DNA of 64,000 bases, from the NCBI RefSeq assembly GCF_009905375.1, contig NC_133655.1:170561141-170625140 (forward strand), written 5' to 3'. The position numbers and the translations under genes are program-made. The notes under the pieces are model-generated. The model was not told where the DNA came from. It saw only the letters and a list, made by a program, of their open reading frames with translations, and did no database searches. Below are positions 29,649-56,983 of the stretch, piece by piece. Every line of letters begins with the position of its first letter. Within the stretch, counting starts at the first letter, position 1. This stretch comes from Apium graveolens. Taxonomy: Eukaryota; Streptophyta; Magnoliopsida; Apiales; Apiaceae.

Positions 29649-29714
29649 TGTAATATCCGAGATATATCGTGTAATTATTTTGCTATTAATTAATTATTAT
29701 ACGTGTCAAGTATC
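29649..29714 (+). repeat. GypC right LTR, first 66 bp (before SireD)
   Basis: Matches 20386-20452 of the left LTR and breaks at TSD GTATC (29710-29714), where SireD begins. Continues at 56984. Confidence 0.93.
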
Positions 29715-30725
29715 TGTTATTCCTAATGAACTAACAATGAGATTTACAGAAGGGGTTTGAATGTAAATCTCAAAACTTTTTCAAGTTTTGAGCAGTTTCA
29801 AAGGCTATGTGTTTAAGATAAACAAGTGTATGAATTGCTTTAAGCTAATACTGACAGATATATATTCAAACACTAATGTAAAGAACACAACAGACCTTAA
29901 AAACTTTTCTGGTGGATTGTTGTTCCACCAGAGATGGTATTTCAGAAAATCTGTGATTCAAGAAGTTGATCACAGTTGCGTCCTAGTACAAACTAGATAA
30001 TTTTTCTCTCAAGATTTTTCTAAACAGCTCTGGAAAAATTCTCTTCTAATTACTAGCTGCTACTTGGTTTATATAACACCAAGTGTACAAGTGAAGACAA
30101 AGATAAAAAGTACAATAATAAAATAAGTTCTCCACTTGTTTCTTCTCCATTTTACTCCAGTGCATTGTTGACTATTGCCTCTTTATACTAGAGTAGAATG
30201 GCTGCTTTTTCTGATGTTCCTGAAATAGGCTACCACATCTCAGTTGTCTCTGTCAACCCATGTGCCTCTGTTTGTAGGTACAACTACCACTTGTCAACTG
30301 CTATTTAACAGAACATCCGTTGAAGCCTTCATCCGTTGATGGCTTTATCCGTTGAAGGATGTTATCCGTTGAAGCTTTAGAGACATCCGTTGAAGCTTTG
30401 TTTCTCATCCGTTGAAGGTCTTTAAGTTATCCGTTGACACCATTTCATTTATACAAAATTACAAGGCATGAAATATTTACAATTGGCCTTCCTATCTGCA
30501 TATCCTCTAGTAGTCAACATGACTTATAATTTCCCTCAACATTTAAGAGTTATATCTCAAATTCAGAGACTGAAATGTGCTACAACACTAGACTTATTTC
30601 TAAGTAAAGCTACACCATCAACGGATAGCCAAAATGGTCTTATCCGTTGAGGCTACAAACACTAGATTTTTACTTAAGTGTTTTGTTAAACATATCATCA
30701 AATTAATGCACATATATTCCTAACA
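29715..30725 (-). repeat. SireD 3' LTR
   Basis: Reads TGTTATTCC...CCTAACA on the plus strand. Contains nine exact ATCCGTTGA/TCAACGGAT boxes: seven between 30315 and 30437 and two at 30618-30626 and 30642-30650, the last two forming a 10-bp-stem inverted repeat. A likely TATA box on the minus strand is at 30068-30075. Confidence 0.94.
30068..30075 (-). promoter_or_regulatory. Probable TATA box of SireD LTR
   Basis: TATATAAA on the minus strand; same sequence at 56331-56338 in the 5' LTR, where it would drive the genomic RNA. The motif boxes at 30315-30437 lie upstream of it on the sense strand, as enhancer elements would. Confidence 0.5.
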
Positions 30726-30735
30726 ATCTCCCCCT
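30726..30735 (-). other. SireD polypurine tract
   Basis: Minus strand reads AGGGGGAGAT abutting the 3' LTR, the usual copia plus-strand primer. Between it and the third-ORF stop (30736-30913) is a short noncoding stretch. Confidence 0.85.
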
Positions 30736-30913
30736 ATTTATGTCTATAAGAATTGTAGACATAAATTCAAGGTTAACTTGATGATAACAAAACACTTAAC
30801 AAATATATGAACTGAAACTAAGTAGAAATTCAAAAGTGCTGCAAAAGTGTATGTACTAGAAGGTAATTGAAGATTTACAGTATTTCCAAGGATGCTCCTC
30901 TAGCCTGAGCAAA

Positions 30914-33900
30914 TCATCTTTTTCTTCTTTGATCCCTGGTTTTCTTTCCTAGCCCTTTATCATTTTCCTCAATTTGGAGTTGGAGTTGTCTGAAGAATTC
31001 AGCTTCATCTTCATCACTGATATCCAACTTAGATTGCATTTCTTTGAGAGTTTCATTGCTGGCAATCTTGAGTTGGTCTTCAAGTCTGAAAAATCTTCTG
31101 ACTCCTTTATCATCTCTGAATTCCATCAACCAATGAGGTGATTTGTGAATTGTAGTTCCCCTTTCTTGAATGAGTAAGGTTCTGGGCAAGGCATTGGGCT
31201 CCCTCCAAGTTTTCCTTATGTTGGTAATCTTGTTGAGAATTTCAGTCTTAGCAGTCCTGGTAAAGCCAGAATCCTTTTGTATGGCTGAAAAGACTCTGAT
31301 CAAGGTAGAGTAGCCTTCATTCAGAATCCTGTAGAGAGGCCATGTTCTTTCCCCAGCTCCTTTGTATCTGAACACCAATCTCTCTGGTAGCTGTCTGTAA
31401 GCAGCAATTCCCCTTACATCCTCCAGCTCATCCAGATAGAGTTCAATGTCTGAAATTTCTTTTATGTCACAGATGTGAACATAATCATCTTTAAAAATGG
31501 GTGGCTTAGGGTTAGGTTTATGTTTTTGAGTGAATTTCTTAGAGTTTAGGGGAGGTGTAGATTTGGATTTTCTTTTCTGTTTCTTTGGTAGTGGAAGAGT
31601 GGTTAAAAAGGTAGGAAAATTGATGGTGTCCCAATCAATAGGTTCCTCTTTTGGGATGATTGGTTCACCATGGATGTTTATAGTGGGATCAGCAACAAAG
31701 GGTTCAGGTATGGAAGGTAGAGATTTAGTTTCTTCAGTGTTGCCTTCACTCCTTCTATGTGCCTTGGCCTTTCTTCTGTTTCCCTTCTGCCATTCCTCTT
31801 TTTCCTCCATACTTTCACCAAATATACTCCCAAAAACCTCATCTAAGTTTGCAATCTTGTCTTCACCCCTGACTTCAATTCCTTTCTCATTTTCAACTAG
31901 ACTTGACTTTAGCTTTTGTTCAAGCTTTGCTTGTGCTCTTTTGTCAGCCTTGAGTTTTTCAGCTTCTTTCTTTAACCTTTTGGTTTCTTCCCTCTTGGCT
32001 ATTGAGAATTTGGGATGTCCTTGCATCACATATATGCTCTTTCCCTCTCTAAAGATAATAGCCATGTTTCTCCTTACTGCCTCATCCATGGTCTCCTTGT
32101 GTTTTATGATGCTAGTACCCAAAACTTTGTCTTCATCAGGCTTTGGAAGGGGAAAGTCCACTTCTTTCATCTGAGCAAAGTCTAGAGGGTTCTTTGTGGA
32201 GTCCTTGCTGGATCTAGTGTTGGGCTTGAGAACCATAGGTTTTAGATTCTTGAAAGAAGTCTCTCCAACCTTATTTCTCCTTTCTGGCTTGTGCTCCATA
32301 TTGATTGGTTCAACCTTTGTGCTATGTTTCACAGATATTGATTTATCTTGTGTTGAGCCAAACAGCTGTTGCATCCTTTCATCAATTCTCCTCCTTTGCT
32401 CTTTCACTTGAATTTCAGCTGCTGCTAGCTGGATTAAATCAATTCCATCAGGCTTTCCTTTGATTTGAATGATTGGAGAAGTAGTGATGGCAGGAACTAG
32501 CACTTTAGATATTTGGATTTTTGTAGATGGCTCTCCTTCCCCTTCCCTTTTACTCTCCCCCTTTTTGTTATCATCAAGGAGAGGGGTCAAGCCCTGTGCT
32601 TTTGCCAGCTGCATAAGTAGATTTGTTTGAGATTGTTGGTTGTGAAGAATGGTGGCCACAGAATCTTCAATAACTTGAACTCTGTCTTCCAATTTGGCCA
32701 GCCTCTTTTCAGTATGTGATTCCTTTTTCAATCTCAACAAAATGTCCTGCATTGTACCATAGGGCATGACTGAATCCAATTTTTCAGAATTGTAGGATTT
32801 CAAGTCAGCAATATCCTTTCTGAGTTCATCCACACTCAGATTCTGTCTTACTTGCTGCAACTTCATGAGATGCAGGGAGTCCAAGTGAGCTGTAAGGATA
32901 GCCTTTGTACCAGCATGTGAAGTTTTCTGAATGGCCTGTTGGATAGTACTGATTTGTTTGACTAAGGAGACATTGAATTACCCTGTTGTAGACTCCTTTG
33001 TCAAGGCCCATTCAGGTAGATTTGGAATAGAACTAGGGCCTTCATCTCCCCCTAAGTTCATGCTTCCATCAGAAGAAACAAAGTCATCATCATCAGAATT
33101 TACTCCAAATTCTTCAAATAACTCACCAGCTGTTGAAGGCATCTTGTTAATAGCAGCTTTGTCCCTTTGAAGAGATGCTGTTGTATGTACTAGATGTAGT
33201 GTCTTTTCTGCCTCCACATTGCCCTGTGCAGCCAATAATTGATAGGCTGAAACAGGATGAGTAAAAGTGTCAGCATCCAAGGAAATGTTATCAATAACAG
33301 CTTTATAATGTTGCTGAAATTGTCTTTCCTTTTCAGCATCATTCACAATCATTGACTCACTAGCAATGGCTGGATCCATCCTTATTTCTGTTGTACCTGC
33401 CTTTCTCTCATTTTCTCTATGTTCTTGCATCAGGGGCTCCCCCTGGCTCACACAACTCACTCCCTCACCTTCACCTACTAAGGTGGTACTCCTTTCACTT
33501 ACTTTTGCCATGCTGAAAAAAATAGCATGCATGTTTGAGCTCTCAATCTCTCCTTTTGCCTGGGAGCAACCCAGCCTCTCACTCAAATTGTCACTCCCTT
33601 CCCTCAGTCCTAGAAGTGATTGTACAGTAATCAAGTCTTCTACACTTGGAATTGTTTCAGTTGTGTGTGTAGAGACTATCAACGGATGAGGAATAGCCGT
33701 TGAAGGTGAAACTGATGGTATCAACGGATAACTGCTGTTAAGCTTATCCGTTGAAGAACAACCACTTGTCAACGGATGAGTGATATCCGTTGAAGAAGGA
33801 AAAGAAGTAGAAATTGAAAGTGATATAACTGTTGAATCTGTGTAGATTGATATGAGTTTTGGTGACACAGATCCTTCAATTACATCTGAAAGAATTTGCG

Positions 33901-34650
33901 GGTGATCCAACAAATCATCTAAAAGATGATGATCACCTGTATTTGAGTGGGGCTCCTCCCTGAGTTGTAAAGAGGGAGAATCAGGAATTGATGGGAATAA
34001 CATATCCACATCTAGAGATGGTGAAGAAGTGTGTGGTGATTGATGTGTGTTAATTGTGAGAGAATGGGGCTGTGACTCCACATTTGTTGGAGCCACATCA
34101 AACTGAGTTTGAGAAGGCATAGATACAGATGGATGTATCTGTGCAGTGTGTGCACCCTGTGTAGAAGATTGGGTTCTTGCTCTCGTTCTTCTAATAAAGG
34201 CTTTTGTTGGTGAGTGTTTGGCTTTAGTGTCCCTCCCTCATTTGTTCTGTGTTCCTGGTGGGGAACTATTTTCAATAGTTACATCCTTTTGGGAGGATGC
34301 AGCTAGGGATATGCTAGTAACCCTTTCAACCACCACAGCTTTTTGAGAAACTGTGGCTTGGCTAGCTTGGGAAGCACTTAACTCTCCTTCCTTATCCTGG
34401 GGGTTTCTTTGATTTTCACCCCTCCCCTCACCACTCACACCCTGTTCACTCCCCTCAGGGTTAAGGGTAGGTGTTACAACTATTGTCTTTTGAGAAACAA
34501 CAGAGGTGGTTTTCTTTGTCTTTGATTTTGAAAGTTTAGTTTTGGTGACCTTGGTAGGAATCTGTTGGGGCATTGTCACAGATTTCATGGCCACACTAGA
34601 AGATAAAGAAATAGAGGGGTTGGAAGAAGTAGGAGTTGTAGAAGCAATTA
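30914..34650 (-). pseudogene. SireD third ORF, main part downstream of GypE insertion
   Basis: Continues in the same frame as 48826-49621 once GypE is removed (the insertion plus one TSD is 14175 bp, a multiple of 3), and runs to 30914 with only two in-frame stops: TGA at 34238-34240 and TAA at 32978-32980. First come Ser/Thr/Lys-rich stretches. Then a low-complexity region follows that includes the 9-mer boxes at 33679-33793. Next is a probable coiled coil (about 32600-32880), a Lys/Glu-rich region, and a compact C-terminal region (about 30930-31480) with a basic tail. No enzyme motif or clear membrane segment. By position it is the Sirevirus 'env-like' ORF; function unknown. Whole ORF about 1510 codons. 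Confidence 0.78.
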
Positions 34651-37600
34651 TGTAACACCCCCAAATCCGGGGTCGGGGATCCGGGTTGTCACGAGTTCCA
34701 TTTCCCTTAATAACACCCAATCTTAATAATTACTCAACTACTCTGTACTGTGACCCCACAATAAACACACACACCATACGTTATAGTCTCAGAGATGAAC
34801 ATCCAAAAATAACCACAAGTCATTTTATTCCACAATTATCTGCCAATACACCTTAAAAGGTTTTCTGAATAAATTTACATTTCTTTGCCATTATTACAAT
34901 TCATAATTATACATAAATCTGGTACATTAGAAGTTGAAAGCCTAGTCTATTGGTAGTTTCTACCTCAGCTACGGCGGCATCAATGCTTCTAGAAAACTGC
35001 GGAACGTCTCCTAATCGCTTGCGAATCGGGAGCTTGGTCCTGTTCATCCTTTCTATCTGTTGTTGTGTGATGAAAGAAGAAAGCAAGGGTGAGCAGCAAG
35101 CCCACCAAAATAATATGTATAATGATTAATAGTATATGAGCCTTCTCTTAGTACTCATGAAAGTCTTGGTCAAAAGAAATGAACCAAGTTGATATCTTAA
35201 TGCGATGAAGTCGCAAAATATTCAGTATATATATATATATATATACTTTTCAAAATCTTGGAAGTCCTCTTCCATGCATAATATACACAGAGTTCCAGTT
35301 TATAACTGTATAAAAATATCGTTGCAAGGTGATCTCATATATCTAACCTTGTCTCAACGTTTTTCTGAAAATCTTTGTCATGCATAAGATAATCATATAC
35401 TAGATATAAGTTTAAAAGATGAAGTTACAAGATACCCCAATATACTTATATCTTTTCCAAATATTACTTGAACTACCACCGTTCAAGTTATAATCAGTTC
35501 AAAAGTTCATCACATAGATGAGACTACAAGACAAGATTTGAATAGATTCAATCTTTGAATATCATTATAAATAATGAAGTTACGAGATACTTCATTAAAT
35601 CCCGATATATATACACCTATATATATACATTTCGTACACTCCTTGAAAACCTCTGTTATGAAAATTATAAACAGAGTTGCAATATCCAATGAATTTGGAA
35701 AGGAGAAAACCTTGGCATAAACCTGATATCTTGCTGATCAGACAAAGATACCAATAAGTAACCTTTTCTACTAGTAGATGGACGAATTCCCCACTGGTCA
35801 TCACCCTGGTCGCATTAGGACCTTATGCTGGACTGCCACTCAGCCACTTATGCATTTGATGGACTCCCACTGAGCCACTTACACTATCATGGACGCCCAC
35901 TGAGCCCATGTTGCTTATGCCGACTCAATAGATGGACTTACTTCCCGAACGTTGGGTAAGTAATCAATTCATTTACCAAAACTGCAACCTTGTTGCGAAT
36001 ATAAAATACACCATAGAGCCGGATCCCTTAGATTTTTGAGCGAGTATTCAAGTCCCCTTAAAATGGAAGATCTTGAATTTGAAAACAAGTTTTGGGATCC
36101 GCTCTACCCTTTTTAAATTCATTTTGAAGACTCGAAAACATTTTTAAGAATGTTTGGAGTAATGCTGATTTATAAAATAAATCAGTCCCAGTATGAAAGG
36201 AATATCTGAATATTATTATTTAAATAATATTCCCATAAAGAATAATCTTTATAAAAATAATTGAAGTAGAAGTATTAAAACTTATACTTGAAACGAGTAT
36301 TAAATAACCAAAGATATACTTATATGAAAGTACTATCTTTATTTGAATAATCGAAAATAAGTTTGATTATTGACACCTTATTCTTTAATAAAATAAAGAA
36401 TATACCTCAGCAAATAATCGGAGTCATAGATCCTCAAATAAATATTCAATAATATTCATTAAATAATATAAACTGAGTCATAAGCCCTCGAATGAATATT
36501 CAAATAATATTCAATAAATAATATAAAAGAGTCATAAGCCCTCGAATGAATATTCAAATAATATTCAGATAAATAAATAAAAGGAGTCATAAGTCCTCGA
36601 ATGAATATTTAAAATAATATTCAGATAAATAAATAAAAGGAGTCATAAGTCCTCGAATGAATATTTAAAATAATATTCATTAATAAAATAAAAGGAGTCA
36701 TAAGTCCTCGAATGAATTTTCAAAATAATATTCATTTAATATAAAGGAGTCATACGCCTTCGAATAATATTCGAAATAATATTCAATAATAAAATAAAGT
36801 TAAAGTAATCGAATAAACCTTATTCGATTAATAGTTTTGAAAACTATGACCATATATATATATATATAAGTATATATATATATATCCATATATACAAAAT
36901 CTACTCGGGATCCTCGACTCCCGGTTTTAGAAAATATTTCCACCTTTGGGTCCCTATACTAAGGGTATACGCAAATACCGCTTATCTCTAGCATAGGTAT
37001 TATGCAACGAATAAGCATTTGAACCAACAGATATATAAATCAAGAATACGAAACAGGCATGCATATATATACCATATCAGCATGCTTCAATATATCGCAA
37101 CATTTGCTAATTAACCAACATGCATCTATCGCAAGATAATGCATATACATATATTCATCACAACAACAGTATAACGGGTAGAAAACTTGCCTGAGCGACT
37201 GGGGGTTACGAATGGCTCGGGACGAGTCTGGTAACCTATAAACAACAAGTAAGTTGGAATTAAACCAAAGTCACTTGTAAATCTATACTTTAACTAACTT
37301 AGACTCTAACGCTTGTTTTGCGCTTACTGATTTTCTTAAGTCACTCGAGTACCCTCGGCTCCACCATTTTTAATAAATTAACCATTACGAATTTTAAGGC
37401 GATTCCTTCGCGAGTGTCTTACCAACTGCCTAACACTCTTACCATAATTGTTTCATACATTAATTAACCCTTTTTGGTCTTTAACCTATGTTTCAAAGTA
37501 AGGCGAGGGGAAATGTTTCGTTCGCGAAACGCCGTTACTTGAAACGGTCGTTTCTCCTAAACCGTGCATCGGAATCGAACGAACTACATATCAAAACGAA

Positions 37601-38969
37601 GCTTGTAACACGAGCTATCTAGACATGGCAATGGTCATAATCTAGCAGGGGGTTCTCGGGTCCTAATGTTATGCACAAAAACAGTCTAAAGAAAATCGGA
37701 CGTTACGACGACTATGTTTACGCGATTTCCCAAATTTAAACCATTCAAACACCATCACAATTCAACCTCAAATCAATCATACAACCAACATCCATCCAAT
37801 CCACATCATAACAGCCCTAACCAATTCAAGTTTAACATTCATACTTATTCCTAAGCTTAACTTTAACCATACTTAAGTTCTTTTAATCAAAACAACAACA
37901 TTTACCAATCCAACAACATCCCAAAACTCACTAATCTCTACATACACAACCATCAAGCCTCTCATGAACTAAAATACTCATATTATGCTCTTAACATTCA
38001 ATAACAAAGCTTGGTTAAGAGATTATACCTTCCTTGAAGCTTTTTAACACAACCCAAGAGCTTTGAATGCCTAAAGAACCTTGATCCTTGCTTGTATAAC
38101 CTTAATCTTTCATAAAAATTCAAGAAAACTAAAGTTATTTCTTGAAGGTTACTATTCACCATCTTCTTCCTTGATTTATAGAAAAAGATTGGCTTGGAAT
38201 TAGAAGCTTAAACTTATAGGAAGTATGTAACTATCCATGGGGAAGCTTAGATAATTACCTTGCTAAATAGTAAGTGGTGGAGCTTGGATCTTCAAATTTT
38301 AAGAAATGGGCCGAGAGCTAGCTTGGGAAGAAAGAGATTTTTGTGTTTTGTTTGATGAAAATGAAATGATTTGCTTGGTTGGTTGATTTTTGTGTTGTTT
38401 TTGGTTAATGACTTAATTAACCTTGATTTTGTGTGGTTATAATTCAACCACACTTCCTTCCCTTCTTTGTCATGCTTGTGTCACCTTGCACATGTCATAA
38501 TGCTCCCACTTGTCCACACCTTGTGGTTTGATGATGTCACAATCCCTGGCTTCTTGTACAAACTTGTCTCTTGGTCACTTATTTGTTTTACGGTTCGCTT
38601 ATCTTTCGTTCTCGTTTATCGTTTGAGGGATCATACCCGGGATCTTATTACTTAGGTTCCCTTAACCTTTCTCAATATATTATATTCCTTTTATGATCCT
38701 CTCCTATAATCCTTTAATTTCAATCCTTTTTATCCTGTTACCTTATACTCAATTCTCTCCGTATCTTGTGGATTTCCGGGAAAAATCAAAGTGTTCGGAA
38801 TTGGATTCTGACGATCTTTACATACACTTATATACCACATAGAGTACTAATAATATCCCATAAGATCAATAACAGAACCCCTACATAGCGTGGCATGAAA
38901 AGTTTTCTCGTTCAGCAAAAACACTATTCATAAGGGTTTCAAAATTTCTCAAAAATTGGGGTTATTACA
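34651..38969 (-). repeat. GypE 3' LTR (4319 bp)
   Basis: Plus strand TGTAACACCCCC...GGTTATTACA. Internal structure: three CACT[CG]AGCC boxes at about 35828-35910, a tandem array at 36421-36798, and a TA microsatellite near 36855-36890. No coding ORF; small ORFs here recur identically in the other LTR. Confidence 0.95.
36421..36798. repeat. Tandem array in GypE LTR, about 54-bp unit
   Basis: Seven imperfect units each starting GAGTCATA and containing CCTCGAATGAATATT then AATAATATTCA; unit length about 52-56 bp. The same array is at 46274-46652 in the other LTR. Confidence 0.88.
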
Positions 38970-38982
38970 GTCTCCCCTCCTT
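38970..38982 (-). other. GypE polypurine tract
   Basis: Minus strand reads AAGGAGGGGAGAC directly before the 3' LTR, which fixes the orientation of the element as minus. Confidence 0.8.
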
Positions 38983-39239
38983 AAAAGGATTCCGTCCCGG
39001 AATCAGATAGAAAACAAATGGGGATACTTTCTTAGGATTACACTTTCTAACTCTCGAGTCAATTTTCCACATTGTGGTTCTACCACCAAACTCTGCCTAG
39101 TTTGATAATCCTTCTCCTAAGCACTTGTTCCTTTTCACTCTATAACCCTTCCTGGTTGCTCCATATAGGTTACGTCGGGTTGCATATCTATGCGCTCATA
39201 TGCCCCTATTTGACTGGCATCCGAATTACACTTCCTTAA

Positions 39240-39753
39240 CATTGATACGTGGAACACGTTATGAACTTGCTACATGTTCGGGGTTAGGGCTAGCTCATAT
39301 GCTAACTTCCCAAACGTCTTAATATATCCAAGGGTCCAACAAATTGTAGACTTAGCTTTCCTTTCTTTCCGAACCTCATCAATCCTTTCCAAGGGATACC
39401 TATAATATTACTAGGTCCCCTATTTCATACTCTTTATCCTTTCGTGTCAAATCAACATACTTATCATGTCCATCTTGGGCTACTACCAGCCGTCCTCTGA
39501 TTAGATTTATCATATCCTTGGTCCTTTGGACTACTGCGGGTCCGAGCATCTTACGCTCTACAACTTCATCCTAACGTAAGGGAGATCGACATTGTCTTCC
39601 CTCAAGGATCTCATAAGGCGACATCTCGATAGTGACATATGATCTATTGTCGTAAGATAACTCAATCCGAATTAAGTGATCATTCCAAATTCTTTCAAGT
39701 CTATTGCCCAGACTCTCATTATAGCTTTTATCATTAGAACTTTTGCTTCTCAA
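39240..39753 (-). pseudogene. GypE integrase remnant (core end and GPY/F region)
   Basis: At 39571-39753 the minus strand encodes a decayed end of a gypsy integrase core (a WNDHLIRIELSYDN-type stretch, then MSPYEILEGRQCRSPL). At about 39280-39420 a GPY/F-like region (GLMRFGKKGKLS, FVGPLDIL) is visible but crossed by stops. Chromovirus-like, similar in plan to GypC integrase. Not functional. Confidence 0.8.
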
Positions 39754-44493: not shown

Positions 44494-44505
44494 GCTCTGA
44501 TACCA
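44494..44505 (-). other. GypE primer binding site
   Basis: Minus strand TGGTATCAGAGC, a perfect initiator Met-tRNA complement, four bases inside the 5' LTR. Confidence 0.88.
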
Positions 44506-44509
44506 TTTC

Positions 44510-47500
44510 TGTAACACCCCCAAATCCGGGGTCGGGGATCCGGGTTGTCACGAGTTCCATTTCCCTTAATAACACCCAATCTTAATAATTACTCAACTAC
44601 TCTGTACTGTGACCCCATAATAAACACACACACCATACGTTATAGTCTCAGAGATGAACATCCAAAAATAACCACAAGTCATTTTATTCCACAATTATCT
44701 GCCAATACACCTTAAAAGGTTTTCTGAATAAATTTACATTTCTTTGCCATTATTACAATTCATAATTATACATAAATCTGGTACATTAGAAGTTGAAAGC
44801 CTAGTCTATTGATAGTTCCTACCTCAGCTACGGCGGCATCAATGCTTCTAGAAAACTGCGGAACGTCTCCTAATCGCTTGCGAATCGGGAGCTTGGTCCT
44901 GTTCATCCTTTCTATCTGTTGTTGTGTGATGAAAGAAGAAAGCAAGGGTGAGCAGCAAGCCCACCAAAATAATATGTATAATGATTAATAGTATATGAGC
45001 CTTCTCTTAGTACTCATGAAAGTCTTGGTCAAAAGAAATGAACCAAGTTGATATCTTAATGCGATGAAGTCGCAAAATATTCAGTATATATATATATACT
45101 TTTCAAAATCTTGGAAGTCCTCTTCCATGCATAATATACACAGAGTTCCAGTTTATAACTGTATAAAAATATCGTTGCAAGGTGATCTCATATATCTAAC
45201 CTTGTCTCAACGTTTTTCTGAAAATCTTTGTCATGCATAAGATAATCATATACTAGATATAAGTTTAAAAGATGAAGTTACAAGATACCCCAATATACTT
45301 ATATCTTTTCCAAATATTACTTGAACTACCACCGTTCAAGTTATAATCAGTTCAAAAGTTCATCACATAGATGAGACTACAAGACAAGATTTGAATAGAT
45401 TCAATCTTTGAATATCATTATAAATAATGAAGTTACGAGATACTTCATTAAATCCCGATATATATACACCTATATATATACATTTCATACACTCCTTGAA
45501 AACCTCTGTTATGAAAATTATAAACAGAGTTGCAATATCCAATGAATTTGGAAAGGAGAAAACCTTGGCATAAACCTGATATCTTGCTGATCAGACAAAG
45601 ATACCAATAAGTAACCTTTTCTACTAGTAGATGGACGAATTCCCCACTGGTCATCACCCTGGTCGCATTAGGACCTTATGCTGGACTGCCACTCAGCCAC
45701 TTATGCATTTGATGGACTCCCACTGAGCCACTTACACTATCATGGACGCCCACTGAGCCCATGTTGCTTATGCCGACTCAATAGATGGACTTACTTCCCG
45801 AACGTTGGGTAAGTAATCAATTCATTTACCAAAACTGCAACCTTGTTGCGAATATAAAATACACCATAGAGCCGGATCCCTTAGATTTTTGAGCGAGTAT
45901 TCAAGTCCCCTTAAAATGGAAGATCTTGAATTTGAAAACAAGTTTTGGGATCCGCTCTACCCTTTTTAAATTCATTTTGAAGACTCGAAAACATTTTTAA
46001 GAATGTTTGGAGTAATGCTGATTTATAAAATAAATCAGTCCCAATATGAAAGGAATATCTGAATATTATTATTTAAATAATATTCCCATAAAGAATAATC
46101 TTTATAAAAATAATTGAAGTAGAAGTATTAAAACTTATACTTGAAACGAGTATTAAATAACCAAATATATACTTATATGAAAGTACTATCTTTATTTGAA
46201 TAATCGAAAATAAGTTTGATTATTGACACCTTATTCTTTAATAAAATAAAGAATATACCTCAGCAAATAATCGGAGTCATAGATCCTCAAATAAATATTC
46301 AATAATATTCATTAAATAATATAAACTGAGTCATAAGCCCTCGAATGAATATTCAAATAATATTCAATAAATAATATAAAAGAGTCATAAGCCCTCGAAT
46401 GAATATTCAAATAATATTCAGATAAATAAATAAAAGGAGTCATAAGTCCTCGAATGAATATTTAAAATAATATTCAGATAAATAAATAAAAGGAGTCATA
46501 AGTCCTCGAATGAATATTTAAAATAATATTCATTAATAAAATAAAAGGAGTCATAAGTCCTCGAATGAATATTCAAAATAATATTCATTTAATATAAAGG
46601 AGTCATACGCCTTCGAATAATATTCGAAATAATATTCAATAATAAAATAAAGTTAAAGTAATCGAATAAACCTTATTCGATTAATAGTTTTGAAAACTAT
46701 GACCATATATATATATATATAAGTATATATATATATCCATATATACAAAATCTACTCGGGATCCTCGACTCCCGGTTTTAGAAAATATTTCCACCTTTGG
46801 GTCCCTATACTAAGGGTATACGCAAATACCGCTTATCTCTAGCATAGGTATTATGCAACGAATAAGCATTTGAACCAACAGATATATAAATCAAGAATAC
46901 GAAACAGGCATGCATATATATACCATATCAGCATGCTTCAATATATCGCAACATTTGCTAATTAACCAACATGCATCTATCGCAAGATAATGCATATACA
47001 TATATTCATCACAACAACAGTATAACGGGTAGAAAACTTGCCTGAGCGACTGGGGGTTACGAATGGCTCGGGACGAGTCTGGTAACCTATAAACAACAAG
47101 TAAGTTGGAATTAAACCAAAGTCACTTGTAAATCTATACTTTAACTAACTTAGACTCTAACGCTTGTTTTGCGCTTACTGATTTTCTTAAGTCACTCGAG
47201 TACCCTCGGCTCCACCATTTTTAATAAATTAACCATTACGAATTTTAAGGCGATTCCTTCACGAGTGTCTTACCAACTGCCTAACACTCTTACCATAATT
47301 GTTTCATACATTAATTAACCCTTTTTGGTCTTTAACCTATGTTTCAAAGTAAGGCGAGGGGAAATGTTTCGTTCGCGAAACGCCGTTACTTGAAACGGTC
47401 GTTTCTCCTAAACCGTGCATCGGAATCGAACGAACTACATATCAAAACGAAGCTTGTAACACGAGCTATCTAGACATGGCAATGGTCATAATCTAGCAGG

Positions 47501-48820
47501 GGGTTCTCGGGTCCTAATGTTATGCACAAAAACAGTCTAAAGAAAATCGGACGTTACGACGACTATGTTTACGCGATTTCCCAAATTTAAACCATTCAAA
47601 CACCATCACAATTCAACCTCAAATCAATCATACAACCAACATCCATCCAATCCACATCATAACAGCCCCAACCAATTCAAGTTTAACATTCATACTTATG
47701 CCTAAGCTTAACTTTAACCATACTTAAGTTCTTTTAATCAAAACAACAACATTTACCAATCCAACAACATCCCAAAACTCACTAATCTCTACATACACAA
47801 CCATCAAGCCTCTCATGAACTAAAATACTCATATTATGCTCTTAACATTCAATAACAAAGCTTGGTTAAGAGATTATACCTTCCTTGAAGCTTTTTAACA
47901 CAACCCAAGAGCTTTGAATGCCTAAAGAACCTTGATCCTTACTTGTATAACCTTAATCTTTCATAAAAATTCAAGAAAACTAAAGTTATTTCTTGAAGGT
48001 TACTATTCACCATCTTCTTCCTTGATTTATAGAAAAAGATTGGCTTGGAATTAGAAGCTTAAACTTATAGGAAGTATGTAACTATCCATGGGGAAGCTTA
48101 GATAATTACCTTGCTAAATAGTAAGTGGTGGAGCTTGGATCTTCAAATTTTAAGAAATGGGCCGAGAGCTAGCTTGGGAAGAAAGAGATTTTTGTGTTTT
48201 GTTTGATGAAAATGAAATGATTTGCTTGGTTGGTTGATTTTTGTGTTGTTTTTGGTTAATGACTTAATTAACCTTGATTTTGTGTGGTTATAATTCAACC
48301 ACACTTCCTTCCCTTCTTTGTCATGCTTGTGTCACCTTGCACATGTCATAATGCTCCCACTTGTCCACACCTTGTGGTTTGATGATGTCACAATCCCTGG
48401 CTTCTTGTACAAACTTGTCTCTTGGTCACTTATTTATTTTACGGTTCGCTTATCTTTCGTTCTCGTTTATCGTTTGAGGGATCATACCCGGGATCTTATT
48501 ACTTAGGTTCCCTTAACCTTTCTCAATATATTATATTCCTTTTATGATCCTCTCCTATAATCCTTTAATTTCAATCCTTTTTATCCTGTTACCTTATACT
48601 CAATTCTCTCCGTATCTTGTGGATTTCCGGGAAAAATCAAAGTGTTCGGAATTGGATTCTGACGATCTTTACATACACTTATATACCACATAGAGTACTA
48701 ATAATATCCCATAAGATCAATAACAGAACCCCTACATAGCGTGGCATGAAAAGTTTTCTCGTTCAGCAAAAACACTATTCATAAGGGTTTCAAAATTTCT
48801 CAAAAATTGGGGTTATTACA
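44510..48820 (-). repeat. GypE 5' LTR (4311 bp)
   Basis: Near-identical to 34651-38969. Differences seen include shorter TA runs near 45090 and 46710-46735 and scattered single bases. Same tandem array at 46274-46652. Confidence 0.95.
46274..46652. repeat. Tandem array in GypE 5' LTR, about 54-bp unit
   Basis: Second copy of the seven-unit GAGTCATA array; unit order and variants agree with 36421-36798, so the array predates this insertion. Confidence 0.88.
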
Positions 48821-48825
48821 AATTA

Positions 48826-49621
48826 CCTCACTTACCTGAGGTGCTTTCATGATTGGTAAATATACCAATGGCACACTGCTGTTGAGATCCATTCTCAATA
48901 AGTCTGCAAGAACTCTTTTCTCTTGTGCCCAGCACTTGAGTTTATTATTCTCATTGGTTATGACCAAACCTTCAGCAACATGGTTAGCCAATAACATAAA
49001 GAATCTAGCATAATAGATGTTATTAGATCTATTAGCTTTGTTACCTAATCTAGTACCCAATTCTAGCATAACATAGTTGCTAAAATTAAAATACCTATCA
49101 GAAACAAGCATATAGAGCATATTAACAAGAGATGAAGTTATGGCATCAAAATTGCTAATTTTCCCAGAGAAAACCTTGATAAAGGCATCCCCAAGAAAAC
49201 TCCATTCTTTCCTAAGGCCTTTTCTTTTAATACTCCCTAAACTAGCAGAGTTAAGAGAATAACCTATGGAATCTAACATGCTGGATACATCATTATCAGT
49301 GTGTGGTGTCATGGCATTGTTCTCAGGTAATTTAAAACATGCTAGTAAATCATAACAGTTAACACAGTGATTTTTACCTTTGAGAGTGAAGGAGACAGTC
49401 ATATCTATTGAGTTGAACTCAGCAGTTGTCCAAATCTCCTCAACTACTTCACAATAAATCGTTGGGGCTTCCAGCATTGCATAGCTAAGTTTACAGTTTT
49501 TGATGAAGTCCATCATTTTGTGATAATCGGAGTGGGCTTCATTCTTTTCTACCAAAGCTATGAAATTGTTCTTCTCATAGATGAATCCAGATTGAGACAT
49601 AATCTTTACTACTGGTGCCAT
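48826..49621 (-). pseudogene. SireD third ORF, N-terminal part upstream of GypE
   Basis: Starts at the ATG 49619-49621 (MAPVVKIMSQSG); an in-frame upstream ATG at 49696 is less likely because both Sirevirus ORFs then begin MAP at the same point. 265 residues, no stop, cut by GypE. Contains LRKEWSF, FDAI and IYYARF in the same order and spacing as the SireA third ORF, so the two are homologous though strongly diverged. Looks globular and mostly helical. It reminds me of N-terminal domains annotated only as putative plant transposon proteins; I cannot confirm this. Continues at 34650. Confidence 0.8.
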
Positions 49622-50176
49622 TGTTGTGAGTAGAATTTGCAGAGAATAACTTGAAGGTTTTGCAGAGAGAAAATGGTAAAAGCTTTGAAATTTCAAGAAA
49701 GCGTAAAGTAAAAAATGAAAAATCAGAAGGGCTTATATACTTTCTCAAATTAAAAAGCATAAATAAGAGATTAAACAATAAATATATGTAAGTGAATTTC
49801 AGCCGTTTAAGAATAAACTGTAAGTATTCTAAAAACTACCTTTAAAACAAATACATACAGCTGTATGTATGAGTATCAACGGTTAAGACAATAGAATCAA
49901 CGGCTGTGAAACACTTGAATCGACTGATGTGATATTTCAACGGATAAGGTAAACTGTCATCCGTTGAAGAGCACTTCAGTTTTATCCGTTGACGGATAAA
50001 AATTCCAGAAATGTATATGACTTTCAACGGATAATGAACATCCGTTGACAGAACAATTTTGACTTTCAACGGATAGGGAATATCCGTTGATGGAATAATC
50101 TGTGTTAAAAATCAAATTTGTTCTTGCAGCTAATACATTTCAGGCTTCAATTCAAATTGCAATAAGGACATGAATT
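49622..50176 (-). promoter_or_regulatory. SireD pol-to-third-ORF gap with hairpin cluster
   Basis: 555 bp noncoding. Seven exact 9-mer boxes: TCAACGGAT at 49937, 50024, 50066; ATCCGTTGA at 49959, 49984, 50040, 50082. They pair as inverted repeats, for example 50066-50075 with 50081-50090 (10-bp stem, 5-base loop) and 50024-50032 with 50040-50048 (7-base loop). Near-copies lie at about 49875-49900. A role in expressing the third ORF is a guess from position. Confidence 0.55.
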
Positions 50177-52200
50177 TTAAGAGTAATTAAGCATACCTAG
50201 CTCACTTACCAATCTTGTGAATGTTGATTCATCAAGTGGCTTGGTAAATATGTCTGCAATTTGTTGTTCACTTGGAACAAAATGAAGTTCCACTGTACCT
50301 TTCATCACATGTTCCCTAATGAAGTGGTACTTGATATCAATGTGCTTGGTTCTTGAGTGCTGCACTGGATTTTCAGTAATGGCAATGGCACTTGTGTTGT
50401 CACAAAATATTGGAATTTTGTCAACAGTCATACCATAGTCAAATAACTGGTTCCTCATCCATAGTATTTGTGTACAGCAACTACCAGCTACAATGTACTC
50501 AGCTTCAGCTGTTGATGTGGAAACAGAATTCTGCTTCTTGCTGAACCATGATACAAGCTTGTTCCCTAGAAATTGACAGGTGCCTGTTGTGCTTTTCCTG
50601 TCTATTTTGCAACCTGCATAATCTGCATCTGAGTAGCCAATTAGATCAAAACCAGACTCTCTAGGGTACCAAATTCCTAGATTTGGAGTCCCCTTGAGAT
50701 ATCTGAAAATTCTTTTAATGGCCACTAAGTGAGATTCTTTAGGGTCAGCTTGAAATCTAGCACAGAGACATGTAGAAAACATTATATCAGGTCTACTAGC
50801 AGTTAAATATAAAAGTGAGCCAACCATGCCTCTATAACTTGTAATATCCACAGACTTTTCAGCCTTGTTTAATTCAAGCTTAGTGGCAGTGGCCATGGGA
50901 GTTTTTGCAGGTGAACAATCCATTAAGTCAAACTTCTTTAAAAGATCATAAATATATTTAGTTTGACTAATGAAAATTCCACTACTAACTTGTTTTACTT
51001 GTAACCCAAGAAAGTAAGTTAGCTCTCCCATCATGCTCATTTCATATTTACTTTGCATTAATTTAGCAAACTTTTTACAAAGCTTATCATCTGTAGATCC
51101 AAATATAATATCATCTACATAAATTTGTACAAGTATCTTAGAGCCATTAACATTTCTAAAGAAGAGAGTTTTGTCAACAGTACCTCTTGTGAAATGATTA
51201 TCTAGAAGGAACTTTGACAAAGTCTCATACCAGGCTCTAGGTGCTTGCTTTAGTCCATAGAGTGCTTTCAACAGATAATACACATGGTCTAGAAAATTTT
51301 GATCTTCAAAACCTGGAGGTTGGCTTACATAAACTTCTTCCTCCAATTCCCCATTTAGAAATGCACTCTTGACATCCATCTGATAGACTTTGAAATTGGC
51401 ATTAGCTGCATAGGCTAGAAAGATTCTGATGGCTTCAAGTCTTGCAACTGGAGCAAATGTTTCATCAAAATCTATTCCCTCTTGTTGAGAATAGCCTTTA
51501 GCAACCAATCTGGCTTTATTCCTTATGACAATGCCATTTTCATCCATCTTGTTTCTGAATACCCATTTTGTGTCAATGGAACTCTTGTTCTTTGGCTTGG
51601 GTACCAGCTTCCAAACTTTGTTTCTCTCAAATTGGTTCAGCTCTTCCTGCATAGCTAATATCCAATCTGGATCCATTAAGGCTTCTTCCACTTTCTTAGG
51701 TTCCTCCTGAGATAGAAAACTACTATACAGACATTCATTTTGAGTAGCTTTTCTTGTTTGCACTTTAGATGATGCATCACTAATGATCAGTTCAAAGGGA
51801 TGATTCTTGGTCCATTTCCTTTGAGGTGGAAGATGTGCTCTAGATGAGGTGGCCTCAGTATTGTCGTGATGTGAGACAGAGTGTTGATCAGTTGAAACTC
51901 CCCCTGAGTTGTTGGTCCTTTGCAGGAAACTTGGAGTTCTATCAACTGATGATGTAAATCGATTATCCGTTGATGAACTATGATCAACGGATGCTTCATT
52001 ATGTACTTCAACGGATGATGCACTATGTCTTTCAACGGATACTGCATTGCCTCTTTCAACGGATGCAGAATTCTGTGCATTATCCAAGGGCATATCTTGA
52101 ATCCCTTTTGAAGTGTCATCTCCATCAATCTCCTCTTCACTATCATCACAATATATCTCAATGTTGTCAAATTTGAGTCTTTCATGGTGTCCCTCATCTG
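50177..52200 (-). pseudogene. SireD pol: linker, reverse transcriptase, RNase H
   Basis: One open frame from about 52200 to a stop at 50177, without internal stops; it is frameshifted from the integrase frame near 52200. Linker of about 110 residues rich in Ser and Val (repeated ASVE/SVD), encoded partly by the 9-mer boxes at 51965-52064. [52 protein letters not shown]. RNase [46 protein letters not shown]. All RT/RNase H motifs look intact. Marked as pseudogene only because the polyprotein frame is broken upstream. Confidence 0.94.
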
Positions 52201-53496
52201 TTAGTCCATCAATATTTTATCATCAAACACAACATGCACAGATTCCATAACAATGTTGGTTCTTAGATTGTAGACCCTATAAGATTTTCCAGCTGAGTAA
52301 CCAACAAATATCCCTTCATCAGCCTTTGCATCAAACTTCCCTTTATGGTCAGATTGATTTCTCAGTATAAAGCATTTACATCCAAAGACATGAAGAAAGT
52401 TTAGAGTTGGTTTTCTTCTCTTGAACAACTGATAAGGAGTCATGCCTTTAGCTTGATTGATCAAAGAAATATTCTGAGTGTAGCAGGCACAATTAACAGC
52501 TTCAGCCCAGAAATATGTTGGTAACTTTGATTCTTCAAGCATTGTTCTAGCAGCCTCAATTAAAGATCTGTTCTTTCTTTCAACTACCCCATTTTGCTGA
52601 GGTGTTCTTGGAGCTGAGAACTCATGCATGATTCCATTTTCTTCACAGAACAGCCTCATTGTCAAATTCTTGAACTCAGTTCCATTGTCACTCCTGATAT
52701 TTCTAACCTTCAAGTCAGGATGATTATTGACTTGCCTGATGTGATTGATAATGATTTCACTTGCTTCATCCTTTGATCCAAGAAAATAGACCCATAAAAA
52801 CTTTGAGAAATCATCTACAATCACCAAGCAATATCTTTTTCTTGCAATTGACAATACATTGACTGGTCCAAACAAATCCATATGTAGCAGCTGTAATGGT
52901 TCATCAATTGTTGTTTCAAGCTTCTTTTTGAATAATGCTTTCCTTTGTTTGCCTTTCTGACAAGCATCACACAAACCATCCCTTGAGAATTCAACAAGAG
53001 GAATTCCTCTAACTAAGTCCTTTTTGACTAGATTATTCATTGTCTTGAAATTCAAATGGGATAGCTTCTTGTGCCATAGCCAACTTTCAGCTGAACTTGC
53101 TTTGCTGAAGAGACAAGTAATAGATTCTGCATCTGTAGAGTTGAAGTCAGCTAAGTACACATTTCCTTTTCTAACTCTAGTTAGAACCACTTTGTTGTCT
53201 TTCTTACTGGTGACAACACAGGCTTCTGAATTGAAGGAAATTGTATTCCCTCTATCACATAGTTGACTGATGCTCAGTAAGTTGTGCTTGAGACCATCAA
53301 CTAATGCAACTTCATCAATTATGACATTCCTTGTTGAAATCAAGCCATATCCCATAGTAAACCCTTTGCTGTCATCTCCAAAGGTTATGCTAGGGCCAGC
53401 TCTCTCCTTAAACTCTGTGAGCAGGGAGAAATCTCCTGTCATGTGTCTTGAACAGCCACTGTCCAAGTACCATAGATTTCTTCTTTTTCCCTGCAC
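52201..53496 (-). pseudogene. SireD pol: protease and integrase
   Basis: Frame opens just after the gag stop at 53510. Protease motif YLDSGCSRHMTG with intact catalytic Asp. GAG-pre-integrase region WLWHKKLSHLN, then C-x2-C of the zinc finger (CDACQKGK). Integrase core: Asp in HMDLFGPV, Asp in IRSDNGTEF, Glu in NGVVERKNR. Ends at a stop at 52201 after FDDKILMD, where the frame shifts to the RT linker. The gag-to-pol change of frame may be natural or a mutation; I cannot tell. Confidence 0.92.
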
Positions 53497-53509
53497 ACCA
53501 TAAAATCAA

Positions 53510-55905
53510 TCAAGTTGATTTTGGTACCCAAGTTTCCTTGGTTCCATTCTTGTTAGCCTTTCTCCTAGACTTCATTCCTCCTGTATCTTTAGACTTAGGT
53601 AACTTTGAGTCAACCTTGATCTTAGATGTAGTTGGTTGAGGTGTAGGGTTAGTCACAGAATCATTTAGCATATTTGGAATTTGATAAGTCATGGATTGTG
53701 CAAGCATGTTATTCCATATTGGCATATTGTATGGCAATTGAGGCATACTAAATGCAGCAAGATAAGGATTGTTAAAATATGGCATGTTTGCAAAATGTGC
53801 ATAAGGATTCTGTTGAGACATAACAGGCATAGCATGCAGAGGTGATGCAGACATATTAGGCATGGAAGAGGGCACAGGTATGGGAGTTTTCTTAATAGAT
53901 TTGCAATTAGCAGATAGATGATTAACACTACTACAATGCACACAGCTTTTTCTAGGAGCATACTTATCAGGTGTGTAATTGTTATGTTTGTTAACCCCTA
54001 CCTTCCCATTTCTATTAGATTTCCTTTTAGTTTCCTTTTTATCCTCAACCACTTTGAGCCTATTCTTTAACTGTTCTAAGGTCATGTGTTCTATATTCAC
54101 CTTACTGAAATCTTTGGATGTGCTTGCTTCTTCTTTGACAAAGTTCTTGGAAGTTGAACCAAACTTTTTGTTGAGTTTCTTTAGATTTTTACTTTTAGAA
54201 ACATCTTCCTGTTTTAATTGAGGAACCTTCAACGGATGCTCCTTTTCTTCCTTCAACGGATAATTTTCATCATCCGTTGATTCCACATCCGTTGACAGCC
54301 CATCAATTAATTCCATTTTCTTTTTGTTTTTATCCCAGGCAGTCTCACAAAATGATTCAATTCCTTGGACCTTGACAATTTGAGCACTAACATCCCTAGA
54401 TGTCTTCCAGGCTTTAATCACCTCTTGCTCTCTCTCTAATTGATTGGAAAGTATTTCTACTTTCTTAACAGATTCAGCTAGTTCATTTTCAACAGATATA
54501 CAATGTAGCTTAGTTTTCTCTAGGTCAATCAACTTATCTTCTAACACAGCATTTCTATTACTTAAAAACAGATTGTTCTCTTTAATCCTACTATTTTCTT
54601 TAGCAAGAGATTTAAGAGACACACGCAAAAGATACAATTCAGTAGACATGTCATTAAAAGCATCATTGCACTCTTCTTTAGTAAGCTGTGTTAAATCAGT
54701 AGTGATTACCTGGTTGCTTGATGAACTAACTTCATTTTCCTCAGAATCAGCCATGAGAGCCAAGTTGACATATTTCACATCTTCATCCTCTTCTTCTCCA
54801 TCAGCTGCCCAGTCTTTTTCTTGAGTAATGAAAGCCCTCTCCTTTTGCTTGAGCAGATCAAAATATTTCTTTTTGTAATCTACTTGGTCAAATTTCTTCT
54901 TTTCAGAAGTTGGCTTTCTGCACTCACTTGCAAAGTGTCCACTTATACCACAATTGAAACACTTGAACTTGGATTTGTCCACCATGTTCTTATGAGGTTT
55001 AGTGGCTCTAGTGTTTTTCCTAAATTTCATCTTTGCAAATCTCCTGGACAGAAATGCAAGATGCTCATCAATACCATCATGTCTTCATTCTCAGCAACTT
55101 GCTCCTTACCCTTGCTTGATTCTGATTTGCTTGTGCCATCTTTGGAGTTTGATATAGATCTCACAGTTTCTTGTCTGCATTCTTTCTCATTTTCAGCTAC
55201 CAAGGCAACTGAACCTCCTTTCTTTCTTCCCTTCTCCAATACCTCATCCTGTTCCAGCTCTAGTTCATAAGTCTTCAAGATTCCATATAATCTTTCAAGA
55301 GTGAAGTCCTTATAATCTTGAGAGTTTCTCAAGGAGACAGTCATGGGTTTCCATTACTTTGGCAAGGATCTTTAAAATTTAAGATTTGAATCCTTCACCT
55401 GGTACACTCTACCATACAGCTTCAGTCCATTCAACAGCTTTTGGAATCTATTGAATGTGTCATTTAAAGATTCATTTTCTTCAAAATGAAAATACTCATA
55501 CTGTTGAATGAGAAGCTGCATTTTGTTTTCTTTTACTTGTTCTGTACCTTCACACAGTAGCTGAACTGTGTCCCAAACCTCTTTGGCAGTTGTGCAATTT
55601 ATCACATTATCAAACATATCCTTGTCAAGACCATTAAACAAAATGTTCATAGCCTTCTTATCCTTGTGGACTTCTTCTGTGTCTTCCATTGTCCATTCTG
55701 CTCTAGGTTTTGGAATGGATTGACCAACAGCAACTGTGGCCGTAGCAACTGTGGCTACTTTGTGGGGAATGTTAGGACCATTCTCAATGCAGTTTACATA
55801 ACCTTCATCTTGGGAGAGTAGATGAAGGTGCATTTTCACCTTCCAATGGTGATAACTGTCTTTGTCAAGAACTGGGATTTTTACTCCAATATCCTTCTTA
55901 CTCAT
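53510..55905 (-). pseudogene. SireD gag
   Basis: Starts at the ATG at 55903-55905 (MSKKDIGVK). N-terminal copia Gag region (YHHWKVKMHLHL, AKEVWDTV, LNDTFNRFQ). Two stops close together near 55372 and 55350 in the same frame, then a frameshift near 55085 into the frame 55030-53510. Two CCHC knuckles: CFNCGISGHFASEC (about 54935) and CVHCSSVNHLSANC (about 53920), both complete, separated by an acidic and coiled-coil region of ~330 residues. Large for copia Gag but usual for Sireviruses. Four 9-mer boxes at 54229-54295. Confidence 0.92.
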
Positions 55906-55952
55906 CTTTGTTAGTTTCCAAGATCTTTAAACTCTTTGTGTGTCAAGAGCTT

Positions 55953-55964
55953 GCTCTGATACCA
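55953..55964 (-). other. SireD primer binding site
   Basis: Minus strand TGGTATCAGAGC, perfect initiator Met-tRNA complement two bases inside the 5' LTR. Confidence 0.9.
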
Positions 55965-55966
55965 AT

Positions 55967-56978
55967 TGTTATTCCTAATGAACTAACAATGAGATTTACA
56001 GAAGGGGGGTTGAATGTAAATCTCAAAACTTTTTCAAGTTTTGAGCAGTTTCAAAGGCTATGTGTTTAAGATAAACAAGTGTATGAATTGCTTTAAGCTA
56101 ATACTGACAGATATATATTCAAACACTAATGTAAAGAACACAACAGACCTTAAAAACTTTTCTGGTGGATTGTTGTTCCACCAGAGATGGTATTTCAGAA
56201 AATCTGTGATTCAAGAAGTTGATCACAGCTGCGTCCTAGTACAAACTAGATAATTTTTCTCTCAAGATTTTTCTAAACAGCTCTGGAAAAATTCTCTTCT
56301 AATTACTAGCTGCTACTTGGTTTATATAACACCAAGTGTACAAGTGAAGACAAAGATAAAAAGTACAATAATAAAATAAGTTCTCCACTTGTTTCTTCTC
56401 CATTTTACTCCAGTGCATTGTTGACTATTGCCTCTTTATACTAGAGTAGAACGGCTGCTTTTTCTGATGATCCTGAAATAGGCTACCACATCTCAGTTGT
56501 CTCTGTCAACCCATGTGCCTCTGTTTGTAGGTACAACTACCACTTGTCAACTGCTATTTAACAGAACATCCGTTGAAGCCTCCATCCGTTGATGGCTTTA
56601 TCCGTTGAAGGATGTTATCCGTTGAAGCTTTAGAGACATCCGTTGAAGCTTTGTTTCTCATCCGTTGAAGGTCTTTAAGTTATCCGTTGACACCATTTCA
56701 TTTATACAAAATTACAAGGCATGAAATATTTACAATTGGCCTTCCTATCTGCATATCCTCTAGTAGTCAACATGACTTATAATTTCCCTCAACATTTAAG
56801 AGTTATATCTCAAATTCAGAGACTGAAATGTGCTACAACACTAGACTTATTTCTAAGTAAAGCTACACCATCAACGGATAGCCAAAATGGTCTTATCCGT
56901 TGAGGCTACAAACACTAGATTTCTACTTAAGTGTTTTGTTAAACATATCATCAAACTAATGCACATATATTCCTAACA
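55967..56978 (-). repeat. SireD 5' LTR
   Basis: 1012 bp, near-identical to 29715-30725. All nine motif boxes are conserved. Flanked by TSD GTATC at 56979-56983. Confidence 0.95.
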
Positions 56979-56983
56979 GTATC

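Follow-up and report, generated by a model that had tools for sequence, protein, structure and literature searches.

A nine-base box repeated through the LTRs, pre-ORF3 gap, and coding linkers of an Apium graveolens Sirevirus: predicted sites for a MYB-type factor

The window analyzed here is a stretch of 64,000 nucleotides from Apium graveolens (assembly GCF_009905375.1, contig NC_133655.1, forward-strand positions 170,561,141 to 170,625,140). It contains, in minus-strand orientation, a long terminal repeat (LTR) retrotransposon of the Sirevirus type at 29715-56978. A nine-base word, ATCCGTTGA or, in the opposite orientation, TCAACGGAT (here called the box), recurs through this element in five clusters, namely, the U3 part of the LTR, the gap upstream of a third open reading frame (ORF3), and the linkers of gag, pol, and ORF3. 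We read these clusters, with some caution, as predicted binding sites of a MYB-type transcription factor. The features of the element are as follows.

29715-30725, minus strand: 3′ LTR, with nine exact boxes at 30315-30650
30069-30075, minus strand: TATA-like site of the LTR, TTATATAAAC
30315-30437, minus strand: direct array in U3, seven boxes in one orientation with start-to-start distances of 16, 16, 17, 21, 22, and 22 bp
33679-33793, unstranded: ORF3 cluster, five exact boxes and a near-box at 33695, in the codon phases STD and H/YPL
48821-49621, minus strand: N-terminal piece of ORF3, with its ATG at 49621, truncated by a nested insertion; relatives align from residue 1
49733-49739, minus strand: TATA-like site GTATATAAGC; candidate internal ORF3 promoter
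49937-50090, unstranded: gap cluster, seven exact boxes, with two inverted pairs 16 bp apart (50024/50040 and 50066/50082) and near-boxes at 49876 and 49897
50177-52216, minus strand: pol ORF with a reverse transcriptase domain (RVT_2; Pfam)
51965-52064, unstranded: pol linker cluster, five exact boxes, four at 24-bp steps, in the phases SVE/SVD and STD; variant ATCAGTTGA at 51887 and 51942
52201-53505, minus strand: pol ORF with GAG-pre-integrase, integrase core, and SH3-like domains (Pfam)
53510-55084, minus strand: C-terminal gag ORF with a CCHC zinc knuckle (Pfam)
54229-54295, unstranded: gag cluster, four exact boxes, in the phases STD and H/YPLK
55967-56978, minus strand: 5′ LTR, with nine exact boxes at 56568-56903

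An exact search of the window returned 39 boxes, 25 as ATCCGTTGA and 14 as TCAACGGAT when read on the plus strand, which agrees to the base with the 39 copies reported by the original prediction. Nine lie in each LTR, five in ORF3, seven in the gap between pol and ORF3, five in the pol linker, and four in gag. All 39 are confined to the one LTR element. None was found in the left flank (29.7 kb), the right flank (7.0 kb), or, as had been noticed earlier, the nested insertion (14.2 kb). With a single LTR counted, as in every total of 30 given below, there are 30 boxes in 12.08 kb, against a mean of 0.01 and a maximum of 1 in 300 dinucleotide shuffles, the control that had been proposed for the motif. 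The enrichment thereby stands, and the random expectation of about 0.1 that first accompanied it proves to be conservative. In these shuffles any 9-mer with more than two different letters reached at most six copies, and chance or composition as the source of the boxes is ruled out by this control.

The word is sharp, since its enrichment ends at one mismatch: nine one-mismatch forms occur in the element (one LTR) versus six in the other 50.9 kb of the window, about four times as much sequence, whereas two-mismatch forms (32 versus 126) show no enrichment. Together with its context the box reads Y-ATCCGTTGA-H-R, with Y in 30/30, H (not G) in 29/30, and R in 28/30 cases, and the pyrimidine ahead of it is seen in the direct array of the LTR as well, in which no hairpin depends on it. 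Among the element's one-mismatch forms, seven alter base 2 (AGCCGTTGA twice and AACCGTTGA) or base 4 (ATCAGTTGA twice and ATCTGTTGA twice), retaining CNGTTGA, and the other two alter base 5.

The element carries the copia-type gag and pol domains of a Sirevirus (Pseudoviridae, Ty1/copia), with Pfam matches to Retrotran_gag_2, zf-CCHC, gag_pre-integrs, rve, and RVT_2. Beside its 5′ LTR, at 55953, lies the complement of TGGTATCAGAGC, which we take to be the letters of the Sirevirus primer-binding site (PBS); the same match at 44494 falls in the nested element. A polypurine tract (PPT), AGGGGGAGAT, stands ahead of the 3′ LTR at 30728, with further PPT-like CTCCCCC copies at 32555, 33046, 33437 (ORF3), and 51898 (pol). 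Recognized traits of Sireviruses include a conserved PBS adjoining the 5′ LTR and, at the 3′ LTR, a PPT in several copies, and an optional one is an envelope-like third ORF that separates pol from the 3′ LTR (PMC2829016). Here, the pieces of a long third ORF with protein relatives occupy that position, and five relatives (P0225, P0228, P0229, P0230, and P0240) align their own residue 1 at the ATG at 49621. By position, ORF3 is a candidate envelope (ENV) gene. Pfam returned no envelope or other domain above the cutoff for the pieces in the window and 5 of the 37 listed relatives, only weak subthreshold matches to unrelated families; nothing was found by PADLOC or among PDB sequences, and the AlphaFold model of the N-terminal piece, with a mean predicted local distance difference test score (pLDDT) of 45.5, is too poor for judgment. 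With 99.2% identity between the LTRs and GTATC as a 5-bp direct repeat at both borders, this copy is probably young. It is broken, because ORF3 is cut by the insertion and interrupted by in-frame stops in its 3′ part, and gag is spread over ORF pieces in different frames.

The clusters have distinct positions with respect to these parts. Beyond the direct array, U3 has two more boxes at 30618 and 30642, which lie farther upstream, 24 bp apart, and point in opposite directions, and the nine LTR boxes together sit 240-575 bp upstream of the TATA-like site at 30069-30075. The gap boxes lie 198-351 bp upstream of the TATA-like site at 49733-49739, which is itself 112 bp ahead of the ORF3 ATG; the sense strand of the internal parts has no other TATAWAW. 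The distance of the gap array to this site and to the ORF3 start is similar to that of the U3 array. The pol cluster is located between integrase and reverse transcriptase and the gag cluster downstream of the zinc knuckle. A 16-bp inverted pair, TCAACGGAT-N7-ATCCGTTGA, has three exact DNA copies, one in ORF3 (33769/33785) and two in the noncoding gap.

Sixteen of the 30 boxes are noncoding and 14 are coding. Because the coding boxes are read in three codon phases, five as STD, five as H/YPL, and four as SVD/E, protein coding does not explain the motif, as the original prediction had held. Within the seven ORF pieces, the exact word encodes 5/8 STD, 5/6 [HYDN]PL, and 4/9 SV[DE] peptides; among the remaining peptides of these kinds, two are written by ATCAGTTGA and one by ATCTGTTGA, both of which keep CNGTTG. 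Ten of the 15 ACG and CCG codons of the ORF pieces fall within exact boxes. The three phases and this codon usage rule out an origin of the boxes as a coding by-product.

The boxes also stand apart in their CpG content. The LTR and coding parts retain 33 CpGs, versus 417 expected from base composition, and 23 of the 33 are inside boxes. The gap has 13 more, seven in boxes and several others in near-boxes. Deaminated boxes are scarce, with two copies of ATCTGTTGA and none of ATCCATTGA against 30 intact ones. The depletion is not special to the Sirevirus, because a copia relative, the piece at 18560-20108 with 73% identity to the pol region (50189-51740), is equally CpG poor, with an observed/expected ratio of 0.02, and has no exact box; it is the retention of the boxes that matters. 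They may have been kept by selection or may have escaped methylation.

We propose that the boxes are double-stranded DNA recognition sites with the core CCGTTG (CAACGG), the likeliest reader of which would be a host MYB-domain transcription factor. CNGTTR and YAACKG are MYB cores; all exact boxes contain CCGTTG, which also agrees with the core form AACGG, and the variants contain CAGTTG or CTGTTG. The seven variants at base 2 or base 4 are what a CNGTTR-type MYB site would be predicted to allow. It is the core alone that suggests a MYB, and it is the core alone that would suggest which one. On the U3 array, such a factor would drive the genomic RNA, and on the gap array the same factor would drive a separate mRNA for the envelope-like ORF3, with the two being activated together. 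The linker arrays of gag, pol, and ORF3 would be extra sites that raise the local density of the factor or hold the element's body open; linkers could carry them because their amino acid sequence is free to vary. We hold it to be probable, with moderate confidence, that the boxes are host MYB-type sites driving the LTR and internal ORF3 promoters, with accessory arrays in the coding linkers. A transcription factor array was among the candidates first named for the motif, and it is the best reading here. The WRKY W-box, TTGAC, was also considered and rejected: a C follows TTGA in just 5 of the 30 boxes.

The relatives of the element are known as proteins, and conservation of the box was therefore read through STD, H/YPL, and SVD/E, the peptides joined by this word alone. 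The top-scoring matches to gag, pol, and ORF3 are Apium graveolens proteins, followed by Heracleum and Daucus for gag and Heracleum for ORF3. The zones corresponding to the linkers were cut out of 70/92 gag, 33 of 120 listed pol (7,992 scored), and 23/37 ORF3 matches, the dropped ones having alignments that did not span the zone or zones that were too short or too long; peptide clusters were also surveyed over all 120 pol, 37 ORF3, and 92 gag listed matches. In gag, STD together with a sense-phase peptide is found in 25/70 zones, at least three box peptides in 23/70, and STDxx[HY]PL, the peptide of the 16-bp inverted pair, in 15/70 and nowhere outside the zone. The density of box peptides per 100 amino acids (aa) is 3.79 in the gag zone, 0.34 in the reversed zone, and 0.05 in the rest of the proteins (11-fold and 74-fold differences). 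In ORF3, the corresponding counts are 8/23 for STD with a sense-phase peptide, 6/23 for at least three box peptides, and 5/23 for STDxx[HY]PL, and the densities are 2.91, 0.07, and 0.02 (about 42-fold and 140-fold). The order of the peptides differs, being STD-STD-YPL-HPL in the gag of the window and STD-HPL-STD-YPL in P0010, P0012, and P0013 (~50% identity), and the Apium pol protein P0093 has six SV[DE] units at 8-aa steps versus four at that step in the window. Thus, box peptides seem to be kept in the same linkers, with number and order changed, by part of the relatives in the case of gag and ORF3 and by a few close ones in the case of pol. A back-translation scan with equal codon use, in which all 9-mers were ranked over 62 gag, 31 pol, and 22 ORF3 zones with close relatives excluded, placed ATCCGTTGA 10th of 124,401 words by the combined score and 3rd for gag and ORF3.

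Some relatives depart from this pattern. In the Apium ORF3 relatives P0224, P0230, P0231, and P0235, all sites are HPS/YPS, with PTD, PMD, or SMD replacing STD, a pattern that possibly fits another DNA word, i.e., a second box type. The gag zone of P0019, a protein named for Rhizophagus irregularis, resembles those of Daucus P0059 and P0040; Rhizophagus irregularis is grown on carrot roots, and P0019 is possibly carrot DNA within a fungal assembly. Among viral contigs, neither pol nor gag had a relative. Three of these contigs contain the 16-bp inverted pair in exact form, one pair each, with two being alike around the pair, and we take these as chance.

Several observations weigh against the proposal of MYB-type sites. 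The TATA-like site before ORF3 is not rare, and the internal ORF3 promoter stays a proposal because TATAWAW turns up in 406 of 2,000 shuffles of the 315-nt stretch; TATATAAG appeared in 14 of 2,000. The peptides STD, H/YPL, and SVD/E can be written by other codons too. In pol, STD with a sense-phase peptide is found in only 4/33 zones, as are at least three box peptides, and below 70% identity the latter occur in 0/28 relatives, so that the signal is limited to close ones; the combination is also absent from 45/70 gag and 15/23 ORF3 relatives, many of which have PS or QL forms. In the back-translation scan, ATCCGTTGA reached a ratio of just 1.3 and rank 16,315 for pol, it was 612th when ranked by the weakest zone, and the top word was its CpG-decayed neighbor ATCCATTGA, from which the peptide data separate it poorly. 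Further, as RNA, the gap (z = -5.7), ORF3 (z = -6.5), and gag (z = -6.3) clusters fold far better than all of 200 shuffles. Finally, the mitosis-specific activator (MSA) motif of MYB3R factors has the core AACGG, and the bait TCCAACGGT, which is bound by SlMYB3R3, differs from the box around that core, being matched in the core but not after it (PMC9730800).

The alternative that survives best is an anti-silencing system like that of Arabidopsis VANDAL elements, operating across the transposable element (TE), in which the ORF3 product or a recruited host factor would bind the boxes and remove or block CG methylation, keeping the element open. The boxes would then be an anti-silencing or activation address, some of its sites being placed within the element's protein genes in any codon phase that the linker permits. 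Since almost all other CpGs have been lost from the LTR and coding parts, leaving CpG concentrated within the boxes, these would be most of the positions there that are open to CG methylation and would act as a methylation switch. We know of no example of such a VANC-like address system in an LTR retrotransposon, although no exhaustive search for one was made. The precedent is VANC21, which binds the 9-base YAGTATTAY enriched in its own TE, and the targets of which are tandem repeats that expand, contract, and coevolve (PMC5735166 and PMC10398659). In a comparable manner, the pol array is built of 24-bp units, the number of which differs between P0093 and the window. Moreover, gag relatives with at least two sites tend to have a single site type (PL, QL, or PS), in 33/48 cases versus 15.1 expected on shuffling and with 0 of 10,000 shuffles as high, a figure that is inflated by relatedness, which was not removed, and in which the QL scored as an additional site of P0001-P0009 is possibly an unrelated HQL. 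However, the same test is weak for ORF3, at 6/11 versus 3.6 expected, a value reached by 975 of 10,000 shuffles with relatedness likewise retained. VANC motifs are described as mainly noncoding (PMC5735166 and PMC10398659), whereas 14/30 boxes are coding here, and ORF3 has no recognized DNA-binding domain, the model of its N-terminal piece being poor. We regard this explanation as possible but doubtful. Were it true, word and factor would coevolve between subfamilies, as the PL, QL, and PS forms might reflect, and a VANC-like system would exist in an LTR retrotransposon, with regulatory DNA overlaid on coding linkers.

An RNA signal for dimerization, packaging, or translation control, in which complementary boxes of the genomic RNA would form hairpins or join separate molecules, is unlikely. 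The strong folding of the gap, ORF3, and gag clusters leaves room for this part of the original prediction without favoring it, and the pol cluster folds moderately (z = -2.5, with 3 of 200 shuffles as good), but the densest cluster, the LTR direct array, does not fold (z = 0.25, with 111 of 200 shuffles as good). Any 9-mer would fold when present in inverted copies, so that the energies follow from orientation, and the pyrimidine ahead of the box is kept where no stem exists. Less probable still, and disfavored already, is local, functionless expansion of a minisatellite-like seed: the 24-bp steps in pol and the 16- to 17-bp steps in the LTR do resemble tandem duplication, but the flanks have diverged while 30 boxes are exact, the boxes form five separate clusters in both orientations, peptides are retained in part of the relatives, and CpG is kept in boxes though nearly lost elsewhere in the LTR and coding parts. 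Selection acting on STD, HPL, and SVE as peptides (e.g., as docking motifs), with the DNA word as a by-product, could account for their recurrence in the linkers of part of the relatives but is very improbable, given three unrelated peptides with the DNA word as their sole common trait, 16/30 noncoding boxes, and the concentration of ACG and CCG codons in exact boxes. A small-RNA target, also suggested at first, is a weak candidate and was rejected, as the conserved stretch of ~11 bases is too short for a plant microRNA or small interfering RNA site.

The Sirevirus lies among other repeats of the window, one of which is inserted in its ORF3.

34645-48820, unstranded: nested LTR element in ORF3; no box; outside the array

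This nested element has two 4.3-kb arms that are 99.4% identical, and its CpG content is 0.79 of expectation. Both arms contain internal repeats (36412-36798 and 46265-46651) that are 83-86% identical at offsets of about 108, 163, 219, and 274 bp. An inverted similarity of 65% links the left neighbor of the Sirevirus (28901-29658) to the nested element (38960-39713). On each side of the Sirevirus is one of two 3.4-kb repeats (20445-23817 and 56977-60366; 96.9% identical), which are perhaps the LTRs of an element that the Sirevirus interrupted.

Among known systems, the MSA element of G2/M genes, recognized by MYB3R, shares with the box the core AACGG and, in both bait and box, a C before it (PMC9730800). 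MYB-driven retrotransposons have precedents in the tomato Rider element, which has a MYB core in its LTRs, and in Tto1 with NtMYB2, cited in the same source (PMC6762207). As in the Sirevirus described here, these are MYB core sites in an LTR promoter; however, the Rider core is CTGTTA, and the sites of Rider and Tto1 are described in LTRs, whereas the present element has arrays in coding regions too (PMC6762207). A literature search found nothing that joins both MYB3R and MSA with LTR retrotransposons, and the matches listed for the exact word looked like primers and unrelated work; most subscription papers lay outside the search. The VANC targets of VANDAL DNA transposons likewise consist of a 9-base word spread through one TE family, with tandem growth and variants in related families, but there a TE-encoded protein of a DNA transposon has been shown to bind, whereas here the system is an LTR retrotransposon with predicted binding sites (PMC5735166 and PMC10398659).

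The closest parallel is offered by the repeated motif (RM) boxes of Sireviruses, which were published in 2010 with no factor known to bind them (PMC2829016). Each element has its own word, with CGG/CCG in the core, and holds 8-32 copies of it in CpG-rich clusters; these occupy the LTR ahead of the TATA box and, in those elements that have an ENV, also precede that gene (PMC2829016). The Sirevirus of the window shows both placements, with nine boxes in the LTR half upstream of its TATA-like site and seven ahead of ORF3, the latter being a candidate ENV by position. However, the 13 published RMs are all palindromes, 12 with CGG-CCG and one, Tnd-1, with another core (PMC2829016), whereas ATCCGTTGA is asymmetric: it occurs in direct and inverted arrays, CGG and CCG stand on separate boxes, and dyads arise from box pairs alone (three exact pairs 16 bp apart). 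RM copies are almost all in the LTR and linker domain, with exceptions at the start of ENV of one copy in Osr10 and four in HOPIE (PMC2829016), versus 14/30 here within the coding linkers of gag, pol, and ORF3. The statement in the original prediction that maize Sireviruses have other short motifs in their LTRs is borne out in print (Table 3 of PMC2829016); its view that the spread was unusual holds for the gag and pol linker arrays, which are absent from that published table, but not for pre-ENV arrays, which it already reports. A literature search that combined Sirevirus repeated motifs and palindromes with gag and coding regions, with most subscription papers beyond its reach, gave PMC2829016 as the only full match among the papers listed. 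LTR and pre-ENV arrays are already known for Sireviruses, and what differs here is the asymmetric word of predicted MYB type together with the three coding-linker arrays. Such a word in the LTR and before ORF3 offers a concrete candidate factor and a testable internal-promoter hypothesis, and the gag, pol, and ORF3 linker arrays, apparently retained by part of the relatives despite changes in peptides and order, would make this a retrotransposon that carries regulatory DNA within its protein genes.

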